Shown here in pieces: positions 53,875 through 56,862 of a DNA stretch of 64,000 nt (position 1 is its first letter; every line of letters begins with the position of its first letter). The position numbers were made by a program, and so were the translations under genes. The notes beneath the pieces were generated by a model. It was not told the DNA's origin and did not search any database. It saw only the letters and a list, made by a program, of their open reading frames with translations. Origin of the DNA: Bryobacteraceae bacterium (GTDB lineage Bacteria > Acidobacteriota > Terriglobia > Bryobacterales > Bryobacteraceae); NCBI GenBank assembly GCA_023384675.1, contig JAHDVK010000011.1, forward strand, positions 1 to 64,000. The letters run 5' to 3'.

Positions 53875-54705
53875 TCAGCGGCGCGCTTCGACGGCGGCGT
53901 AGACTTCGCGCTTGGGGAGTCCGCGCTCGCGGGCAACCTGTTTGATCGCCTCCATGCGCGGCATGCCCTGGGCTTCGAGGGCGAGCACGGCGGAAGCCAC
54001 GTCGCTGTCATCCGCTTCGACAGGCGCGGGTCCGGCGACGAGGGTGAATTCGCCGCGAATCTGATCGCGGGCGGCGAGCGTGGCGCGGACCTCCGAAGCT
54101 CTTCCGCGAAGGAACTCCTCGTGGAGCTTGGTGAGTTCGCGCGCGACGGCGACTTCGGGGTCGCGGCGGATTTCGGCGATATCGGCGAGCGATTCGAGGA
54201 TCCGGTGAGGGGCTTCGTAGAAGACCAGAGTCGCGGTCTCGCTGTTCAGCGACTCGAGCAGGCGGCGGCGTTCGCCGGATTTACGGGGCAGGAATCCGCA
54301 GAAACGGAAGGCGTCCGTGGGCAGGCCGGCCGCGGCCAACGCGGCGAGCAGGGCGGAGGCGCCGGGCACAGGGGTGACGCGGATGCCGCGCGCGGCGGCT
54401 TCGCGGACCAGCCGGTAGCCGGGGTCGGAGATGAGCGGGGTGCCGGCGTCGGAGACGAGCGCGACGGCATCGCCGGCCTCGAGCCGGGCGAGGAGTTCGG
54501 CGGTGCGGGCGGCTTCGTTGTGCTCGTGCAGGCTGAGGGTGGGTGACGAGATTCCGAAATGGGTCAATAACTTACGGGTGTGGCGGGTGTCCTCGCAGGC
54601 GATGACGGCGGCGGCGCGGAGCGTTGCCACGGCCCGGTAGGTGATGTCGTCGAGATTGCCGATCGGGGTGGCGACGATCGACAGCACGCCTGGATTCTCA
54701 GCCAT
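53875..54705 (-). CDS. rsmI: 16S rRNA (cytidine-1402-2'-O)-methyltransferase
   Basis: 276 residues of the tetrapyrrole-methylase fold. Motifs: VATPIGNLDDITYRAV at the N-terminus, SDAGTPLISDPGYRLV, PGASALLAALAAAGLP and YEAPHRI. It methylates C1402 of 16S rRNA at the 2'-O position. The C-terminal region ends in a short helical tail. It may be co-transcribed with fadN, or fadN may have its own promoter. Confidence 0.95.
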   Translation of the reverse strand: MAENPGVLSIVATPIGNLDDITYRAVATLRAAAVIACEDTRHTRKLLTHFGISSPTLSLHEHNEAARTAELLARLEAGDAVALVSDAGTPLISDPGYRLVREAAARGIRVTPVPGASALLAALAAAGLPTDAFRFCGFLPRKSGERRRLLESLNSETATLVFYEAPHRILESLADIAEIRRDPEVAVARELTKLHEEFLRGRASEVRATLAARDQIRGEFTLVAGPAPVEADDSDVASAVLALEAQGMPRMEAIKQVARERGLPKREVYAAVEARR

Positions 54706-54781: not shown

Positions 54782-56044
54782 TTGAGCCTGACCTTGGGAC
54801 CGGCTTACGATGAATCGAAGGCAGAGGTGAGCAGAGTATCCGCCATTCCGCATGACGATGGTACGCCGGGCATGCCCGCCGGCGGTTCCGCGTCCGGGAG
54901 TGCGTTCCGGTATGAGCCGCCGGGGAGTGCGATCACGTTCTACCTCTCTTACGACGTAATTGACCGTTTGGGCGCGGAAGTGATGCGCGGGTTCGGACTG
55001 GTGCCGCGGCGGGGGGCCGAGGTGGGGGGGATTTTGCTGGGCGCGGCGGAGGAAGGCGATCGTCCGGTGGTCCGGATCGACGACTTTGTCCCGGTGCCGT
55101 GCGAACATCTGCGCGGGCCTTCGTACCTGCTTTCGGAGTCGGATCTGGCGCAGATGGATGAGCAACTGGCCAAGTACGCTCCTTCGCCGGAGAAGCGGCT
55201 GCATGTGGTGGGCTATTATCGCGGCAATACGCGCGACCAGGTGCAGTTGGGGGCCGAGGATCTGGAGTTGCTCGACTCGCGGTTCACGAGTCCGACGGCG
55301 GTGTGCCTGCTGGTGCGGCCCTATGCCACGCGCGTGAGCGAGGCGGCTCTGCTGTTTCGCGGCGAGGACGGGAAGTTTCTCACGGACGAAATAGAGAACC
55401 TGTTTCCCTTCCGCCGGCGGGAGTTGGGCGGGGGGCGTCCGCCGCGAAGGCGGGAGGCGGCCGACGGGGTGGACGCGATCGAGGCGGGAGCCGGCGCGGA
55501 GGCGGAAGTTTCTGACCCGGAGACCGTGTCCGCAGTCGCCGCGCAGTTGGGCGGACCCGCCGCGCCCACCTTTGGCGGACTTGCGCCGGCGCCCGCCGCG
55601 GCGGAAGCCCAAGAGCCGGAGAAGGAGACGCAGGCGGGGCGCGGGTGGGTCTGGATCCCTCTTTCGTTCATTTTCCTGCTGCTCGGCGTCGTGCTCGGTT
55701 TTCAGATCTCCATCAGTTTTCGTGAGCCGGCGCCGGCTGGGGTGGCTCGGGAGGATCCCTTTGTTCTCGGTCTTTCTGTGGAACCGACGGGCGAGAGTCT
55801 TACATTGCGCTGGAATGTGGATGCGCCCGCCATCCGCCAGGCGGAGATGGCCATTCTAACCATCAGCGAAGCGAGCAATGAGAAGACCGTGGAGCTTGGT
55901 CCTGAGGACTTGCGGCGGGGCGGCGTACTGTACCGGAACGTGACCCCGGACGTGCGTTTCCACCTCGAGGCGATTTTGAACGACCGGTCGAGCGTGACCG
56001 AGACGGCCCGTACGCGTGTGGTGGAGCCGGACCGGGGGCCCTAG
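54782..56044 (+). CDS. Degenerate JAB1/MPN-domain single-pass membrane protein
   Basis: 420 residues. Residues about 48-200 resemble a JAB1/MPN metalloprotease domain: E80-VGGILLG, then HVVGYYRG and AED160. The JAMM motif H-x-H-x7-S-x2-D is replaced at exact spacing by R147-x-N149-x7-G157-x2-D160, so zinc binding and proteolysis are not expected. An Arg/Ala-rich linker, one membrane helix (289-310) and a fibronectin-III-like domain (about 330-415) follow. It starts 76 bp from the divergent rsmI gene. lepB follows 14 bp later. Function unknown. Confidence 0.65.
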   Translation: MSLTLGPAYDESKAEVSRVSAIPHDDGTPGMPAGGSASGSAFRYEPPGSAITFYLSYDVIDRLGAEVMRGFGLVPRRGAEVGGILLGAAEEGDRPVVRIDDFVPVPCEHLRGPSYLLSESDLAQMDEQLAKYAPSPEKRLHVVGYYRGNTRDQVQLGAEDLELLDSRFTSPTAVCLLVRPYATRVSEAALLFRGEDGKFLTDEIENLFPFRRRELGGGRPPRRREAADGVDAIEAGAGAEAEVSDPETVSAVAAQLGGPAAPTFGGLAPAPAAAEAQEPEKETQAGRGWVWIPLSFIFLLLGVVLGFQISISFREPAPAGVAREDPFVLGLSVEPTGESLTLRWNVDAPAIRQAEMAILTISEASNEKTVELGPEDLRRGGVLYRNVTPDVRFHLEAILNDRSSVTETARTRVVEPDRGP

Positions 56045-56058
56045 CCGCATCCGCTACA

Positions 56059-56862
56059 ATGATGAAAGTGTCTGAACAGAAACTTAGCGTCCCTCCGGCG
56101 GCCGTTCAACCGGCGCCCGTGCCAGTTCCCGATCCGCCCCGGGGAACCATCGCCGAATGGACCGTCACCATCCTGCTGCTGCTGTTCGGCACTACCACGC
56201 TGGTTCAGGCGTTCGTCATCCCCACGGGATCGATGGAGGACTCGCTGCTGATTGGGGACCACCTGCTGGTGGACAAGCTGGCGTATGCCCCGCCGGGCCC
56301 CTTCAGCAAGTATTTCCTGCCGTATACGCCACTCAAGCGCGGGGACATCATCGTCTTCAAGTACCCGGTGGATGTGCGCCAGACATTCGTGAAACGGGTG
56401 ATCGGCGTTCCGGGCGATCGCATCCAGCTCATCAACAAGGATGTCTATCTGAACGGAAAATTGCTCCAGGAGCCCTACAAGTTCCACAAGACGCCGTACG
56501 TGGATTCGTATCGCGACAATTTCCCGTCCGATCCCAACACACGGGTGGACGACCGCGCTCTGGAAATGCTCGATAAGAACGTGGCGGATGGCGAAGTGGT
56601 GGTGCCGCCGGATTGCTACTTCGCGATGGGTGACAACCGCGATTCGTCGCTCGATTCGCGGTATTGGGGCTTCGTGCCGCGCGCCAACATCATCGGGAAG
56701 CCGCTGATCATCTATTGGTCCTACGACGCGCCCACAGAGCGGCTGGTGAGTTCCGGCATCGATTTCGACCATCTGTTCGACCTGGCGCGGAACTTTTTCA
56801 GCAAGACGCGCTGGAAGCGGTCGTTCATGCTGATTCGGGGCCAGGAGCCAGCGCTGCAGTAA
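56059..56862 (+). CDS. lepB: Signal peptidase I
   Basis: 267 residues. One N-terminal membrane helix (about 36-54), then the catalytic Ser58 in PTGSMEDSLL and Lys112 in VKRVIGVPGD. The late box GDNRDSSLDSRYWG is conserved. It removes signal peptides from exported proteins. A proline-rich N-terminal extension precedes the helix. The two genes upstream and here are likely co-transcribed. Confidence 0.96.
   Translation: MMKVSEQKLSVPPAAVQPAPVPVPDPPRGTIAEWTVTILLLLFGTTTLVQAFVIPTGSMEDSLLIGDHLLVDKLAYAPPGPFSKYFLPYTPLKRGDIIVFKYPVDVRQTFVKRVIGVPGDRIQLINKDVYLNGKLLQEPYKFHKTPYVDSYRDNFPSDPNTRVDDRALEMLDKNVADGEVVVPPDCYFAMGDNRDSSLDSRYWGFVPRANIIGKPLIIYWSYDAPTERLVSSGIDFDHLFDLARNFFSKTRWKRSFMLIRGQEPALQ

Follow-up and report, generated by a model that had tools for sequence, protein, structure and literature searches.

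In the window (the whole stretch of 64,000 nucleotides that was analysed, from a Bryobacteraceae bacterium), one ORF encodes a protein in which an MPN/JAMM-fold domain is followed by a linker, a membrane helix and an FN3-fold domain (Table 1). Its start codon is TTG and is uncertain, as similarity to the nearest relatives starts at about residue 8-37. The gene for signal peptidase I (lepB) lies directly downstream, as an earlier note on this sequence had reported, after a gap of 14 bases, and rsmI is the divergent neighbour on the other side. No gene for a ubiquitin-like protein was seen beside the ORF in the window. The protein gave no match in NCBIfam at E ≤ 10 and matched 0 PADLOC families at E ≤ 0.1, and a Pfam search found no TonB_C domain in it.

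Table 1 Features of the MPN-FN3 gene and its neighbours in the window
Feature	Coordinates	Strand	Evidence
Whole gene: MPN, linker, membrane helix, FN3; 420 aa	54782-56044	+	ORF and AF2 model
MPN/JAMM-fold domain, residues 35-220	54884-55441	+	AF2, structure matches, profile match to Rpn11
E80, JAMM glutamate; 126/126 in Arg clade	55019-55021	+	DNA reading, masked tree, alignment
C107-S118 loop (CEHLRGPSYLLS), near-invariant; aligns with Rpn11 Ins-1 region	55100-55135	+	Alignments; Ins-1 assignment putative
R147 at first zinc-histidine position; Arg in 126/126 clade rows	55220-55222	+	DNA reading, masked tree
N149 in place of the second zinc histidine, which most relatives keep	55226-55228	+	DNA reading, alignment
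G157 at JAMM serine position; variable in family	55250-55252	+	DNA reading, alignment
D160, JAMM aspartate; 126/126 in Arg clade	55259-55261	+	DNA reading, masked tree, alignment
Membrane helix, residues 291-312	55652-55717	+	AF2 model
FN3-fold domain, residues 331-412; putatively periplasmic	55772-56017	+	AF2, domain folded alone, structure matches
lepB, signal peptidase I; probably co-transcribed	56059-56862	+	Peptidase_S26 E 3.8e-48
rsmI, divergent neighbour conserved across family	53875-54705	-	Homologue counts in relatives

The earlier note had proposed that the first domain keeps the fold of a JAMM metalloprotease. An AlphaFold2 model, built with 70 relatives in the alignment (mean pLDDT 82), matched MPN structures with Z scores of up to 14.4 and thus gives an MPN fold. 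Within residues 31-220, pLDDT exceeded 90 in 17 of 19 ten-residue blocks and was 85 and 86 in the other two. JAMM/MPN structures accounted for the 68 chains that Foldseek matched to this domain at E ≤ 0.001; the best structural match was Caldiarchaeum Rpn11 with ubiquitin (Z 14.4), and Cap3 (Z 13.9) and EMC and COP9 entries (Z about 12) were also found. Single-sequence Pfam matches to UPF0172 (E 0.0014) and JAB (E 0.009; sub-region 54932-55460) stayed below the gathering scores, JAB (PF01398) reaching 13.8 bits with the whole protein and 16.3 bits with the sub-region against a cut-off of 22.5. A profile of 49 family rows hit Caldiarchaeum Rpn11 at E 2.4e-7, and the motif columns of the two were aligned. 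Of the 49 members, 41 matched the JAB model of Pfam at E ≤ 1, the best E-value being 5.9e-6. NCBIfam gave only weak matches in 49 relatives, to desampylase in eight (best 0.0019) and to 6A-MBL cap2_3 in four (best 5e-5), and a relative with an intact H-x-H (L190) matched the PADLOC JAB models weakly (best 9.2e-5).

Within this fold, the residues of the zinc site are altered. The JAMM motif E...H-x-H-x7-S-x2-D is incomplete, with E80 and D160 present and R147, N149 and G157 in place of His, His and Ser. Reading of the DNA thus agreed with the proposal that the motif had become R-x-N-x7-G-x2-D at exact spacing. Judged from these residues, zinc chemistry and catalysis have presumably been lost in the window protein. 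In the alignment, the near-invariant loop C107-S118 falls on the segment of Rpn11 that holds Ins-1, which suggests that binding of a protein tail may be retained. Ins-1 of Rpn11 is described as the element that recognises the C-terminus of ubiquitin and positions it (PMC6043591).

The history of the site was followed in a tree of 152 rows, built with the columns of both histidines and of the serine masked; 165 distinct rows had been cut to this number by removing rows with fewer than 110 aligned columns and the second fragment of L165. The tree was made by a quick method with SH-aLRT support only, is midpoint-rooted and has long branches. One clade (SH-aLRT 96) carried Arg at the first zinc-histidine position in 126/126 rows. 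Five further Arg rows (L036, L065, L165, L183 and L192) fell outside it, which leaves room for more than one origin of Arg; the residue is derived, since the outgroup JAMMs have H-x-H. Glu80 and Asp160 were invariant in all 131 Arg rows. Eight of the 172 columns were invariant in these rows, E80, R147 and D160 being three of them, although the rank of R147 is circular because the rows were chosen for Arg, a circularity of which the 126/126 on the masked tree is free. At the second histidine position, 100 of the 131 Arg rows had His, 22 had Asn and nine had other residues; this position ranked 47th in conservation among the 172 columns and the serine column 131st. Of the two residues singled out in the earlier note, R147 was therefore conserved across the family, whereas N149 was not. 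Because Glu, Arg and Asp stay fixed while the second His and Ser vary, the site seems to have been remodelled into Glu-Arg-Asp and not simply to have decayed. In three gene pairs, dN/dS of the MPN domain was 0.16, 0.10 and 0.05, indicating purifying selection, and a fourth pair was saturated. H-x-H was kept in six of 139 FN3-bearing rows (L043, L051, L187, L189, L190 and L194), and Leu or Val at the first position with the second His was found in five of 139. Relatives with an intact H-x-H thus exist, as had been considered, but they are other members of the family and not intact versions of the window gene.

The membrane helix that had been proposed was recovered at residues 291-312 of the AF2 model. 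The FN3-like domain was upheld by fold, with FN3 domains among the best matches (Z about 9). When folded alone, this domain reached pLDDT 93, and its best Foldseek E-value was 0.002; the C-terminal domain had no significant sequence match in Pfam or the PDB, so FN3 is an assignment by fold only. MPN preceded FN3 in 139 of 139 distinct FN3-bearing relatives, and a hydrophobic segment lay between the two domains in 137. In 18 of the 139, a TonB_C-like domain was located at the C-terminus behind the helix and FN3, and the four that were checked exceeded the Pfam cut-off. This C-terminal TonB_C places the FN3 side in the periplasm, and jointly with a kinase fusion (L204) and an ATPase fusion (L211) it supports a cytosolic MPN domain. 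We infer from these sequences an N-in/C-out topology.

Natural variants of the layout were also observed. In L204 (G495:C167; 3323-5578, minus strand), a GAF-PAS-histidine kinase replaces MPN, with a hydrophobic segment and then this FN3 domain behind it. In L211 (G164:C14; 2648-4312, plus strand), a degenerate MPN and an AAA_22 ATPase share one ORF. Two rsmI-adjacent loci, L038 (G160:C30) and L202 (G066:C112), keep the helix and FN3 with no recognisable MPN and are natural deletions.

A single-sequence search gave matches in 176 of 200 genomes of the order Bryobacterales. Among the matches listed, all were in the window's own taxonomic family, and 0 of 16 listed genomes of two other families matched, four non-matching genomes being absent from the list. 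Profile searches of 41 genomes of that taxonomic family found at least one MPN match in 40 and an FN3 match in 36, the higher MPN count reflecting several MPN proteins without a recognisable FN3. In these 41 genomes, 71 of 82 FN3 matches lay within 2.5 kb downstream of an MPN match, and 22 of 93 MPN matches had no FN3 match nearby. Both FN3 matches of the window's own genome are in MPN proteins, and in a sample of 119 genomes of the phylum none of the 118 others had an FN3 match; the FN3 domain is nearly private to MPN-FN3 proteins. In a sample of 297 genomes of the phylum, 24 matched, of which three were family members and most others were weak matches to ordinary JAMM proteins. Named records from a closer alignment were nearly all titled Bryobacterales or Acidobacteria; 80 loci were kept from 90 relatives, and as the loci were drawn from the best matches, close relatives are over-represented. 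Searches of an open-access library found no description of an MPN-membrane helix-FN3 family. Solibacter is listed for a ThiS-E1-JAB-cysteine synthase operon, which differs from the MPN-FN3 protein (PMC1779556).

The earlier note had also suggested that linkage to lepB be sought in relatives. As a family trait it failed, being found in 14 of 50 loci and in 9 of 77 named loci; the latter figure came from automatic gene calls, which missed some loci, and is therefore lower. In the nine linked named relatives, the gap was 6-58 bases in eight and 820 bases in the ninth. A family-wide lepB partnership was rejected, since lepB adjacency is confined to a minority of loci, and so was a strict link of N149 with lepB, since the lepB-linked L045, L050 and L115 have His. 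The own genome carries two lepB genes, the other being on contig C59. An rsmI homologue was found in 62 of 80 named loci, and within two genes in 58 of 77. Neighbours were listed for six loci with HxH members, and no ubiquitin-like operon partner was recognised among them. A canonical JAMM (HSHPDEHAYFSATD) with ThiS and ThiF genes, a cluster of the sulfur-carrier type, is located elsewhere in the own genome (L001, contig C53, about 245014-246469), so zinc-JAMM chemistry is available there. This genome has three proteins of the ThiS family. A second, more degenerate MPN-FN3 protein with the motif FTGRRG lies between ABC-transporter genes on contig C11 (L079; 934-1944, minus strand).

Comparison with known systems showed partial likeness in each case. 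With CsRpn11, an archaeal JAMM deubiquitinase (PDB 6fnn, 6fno, 6fjv), the window protein shares the fold (Z 14.4, rmsd 2.9, 139 aligned residues, 20% identity), the motif Glu and Asp, and a Pro-bearing loop aligned with Ins-1; in contrast, CsRpn11 is a soluble zinc enzyme with an intact HxH and without a membrane helix or FN3. MPN pseudoenzymes are best known from eukaryotic complexes, namely the proteasome lid, COP9, eIF3 and EMC. Like the MPN-minus proteins Rpn8, CSN6 and EMC8/EMC9, which have an MPN fold without the full zinc motif, the window protein combines an MPN fold with a degenerate metal motif conserved across its relatives. EMC and CSN6 entries match its MPN domain at Z of about 12, the chain H of the matched EMC entry being presumably EMC8/9; among the Pfam matches of the single sequence, the best is UPF0172, which we take to represent EMC8/9. 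Unlike the window protein, these are subunits of eukaryotic complexes without a fused membrane helix and FN3, and we know of no family-wide Glu-Arg-Asp in Rpn8, CSN6 or EMC8/EMC9. Bacterial JAMMs of ubiquitin-like systems, Cap3 and the bacterial Ubl-deubiquitinase, also share the fold (9ild_A, Z 13.9; 8tyx_B, Z 11.5), whereas the window protein has neither a PADLOC match nor an adjoining ubiquitin-like partner gene. The TonB-like end shared by 18 of 139 family members recalls TonB energy transducers, and TonB_C is lacking in the window protein.

In its host, a soil bacterium, the domain probably uses its fold to bind and not to cut. The reading that we favour, by little more than an even chance, is a single-pass inner-membrane adaptor in which a cytosolic MPN pseudoenzyme would bind a partner and the C-terminal FN3 would lie in the periplasm. 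There is good support for the fold, the layout and the loss of the zinc histidines; the role as an adaptor is a guess, albeit the one with most support. The roles raised in the earlier note, namely scaffold, binder of a ubiquitin-like protein or regulator of protein export, are conjectural. Arg147 would sit at the zinc position, pair with Glu80 and Asp160 and lock a metal-free pocket, leaving the groove, including the conserved GPS loop aligned with Ins-1, for a partner, of which a flexible protein tail is a plausible candidate. Through the membrane helix, this cytosolic binding would then be linked, by coupling or as a tether, to whatever FN3 contacts in the periplasm, and the TonB_C paralogues may extend the tether to the outer membrane. 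In the window's subclade, the protein is probably co-expressed with signal peptidase I, which it may recruit or regulate. A bolder form, in which Arg took the place of zinc for good and the resulting Glu-Arg-Asp lock turned a ubiquitin-type deconjugase fold into a cytosolic tail reader that signals across the membrane via FN3, and with TonB to the outer membrane, is speculative and rather unlikely. If the adaptor reading is true, reuse of the MPN fold for binding arose in bacteria too. The family is a large bacterial one with Glu and Asp invariant, the zinc His changed to Arg and the fold wired through the membrane to FN3 or TonB. Four motif states (HxH, L/V-x-H, R-x-H and R-x-N) share its layout, so the presumed loss of catalysis can be traced and probed step by step.

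Several observations count against the adaptor reading and bear on its rivals. No constant operon suggests a binding partner, and MPN is dispensable in L038 and L202, which keep helix and FN3 without it. The same two loci beside rsmI favour the view, an unlikely one, that MPN is a relic and stabilising cap while helix and FN3 are the working part, for example as a lepB partner; against this, the constraint on MPN is no weaker than that on FN3 (dN/dS of MPN vs FN3 0.16 vs 0.31, 0.10 vs 0.03 and 0.05 vs 0.04) and three functional-site residues are invariant. The 22 MPN matches without a nearby FN3 also speak against an adaptor. Since His at the second position and the Asp persist in most Arg relatives, their domain may still bind metal weakly or in another way. 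Deubiquitinase activity is reported for eIF3f despite its non-canonical motif (PMC2990700), which, with E80, R147 and D160 among the eight invariant columns, supports a protein that is still an enzyme and uses an E-R-(H/N)-D site for metal-free or differently metallated hydrolysis, at the membrane, of a protein tail. We regard this as decidedly improbable, since the first metal ligand is replaced throughout the 126-row clade, the second is unconserved and the serine column varies freely.

It is quite unlikely, too, that the protein forms a heterodimer in which it is the MPN-minus subunit and an active MPN-plus protein is the other. Rpn8-Rpn11 and CSN6-CSN5 are such pairs; Rpn8-Rpn11 and CSN entries are among the structure matches, and HxH proteins of the same layout occur in the family (6/139 rows). 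However, a profile search of the own genome gave only the window protein and its degenerate paralogue, with no HxH member of this layout, and the one Prok-JAB match there is the soluble-looking JAMM of the ThiS-ThiF cluster on another contig. This absence falls short of proof, since the assembly consists of 60 contigs at 97.4% completeness. That both histidines are gone in the window copy could mean that an active JAMM has decayed here into a pseudogene or defective allele; this was rejected as extremely improbable, given an intact ORF, the same substitutions conserved across the family and purifying selection.

Two further observations concern other loci. Of the 19 loci of TonB type (L040-L042, L044, L170, L172 and others), 13 have a TPR gene close by and 10 have a CxxC-headed gene that gave no Pfam match. 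The locus L138 (CALQCC020000010.1), titled Bordetella parapertussis, holds a Bryobacterales-type copy adjoining rsmI, and the name given to this MAG looks wrong.
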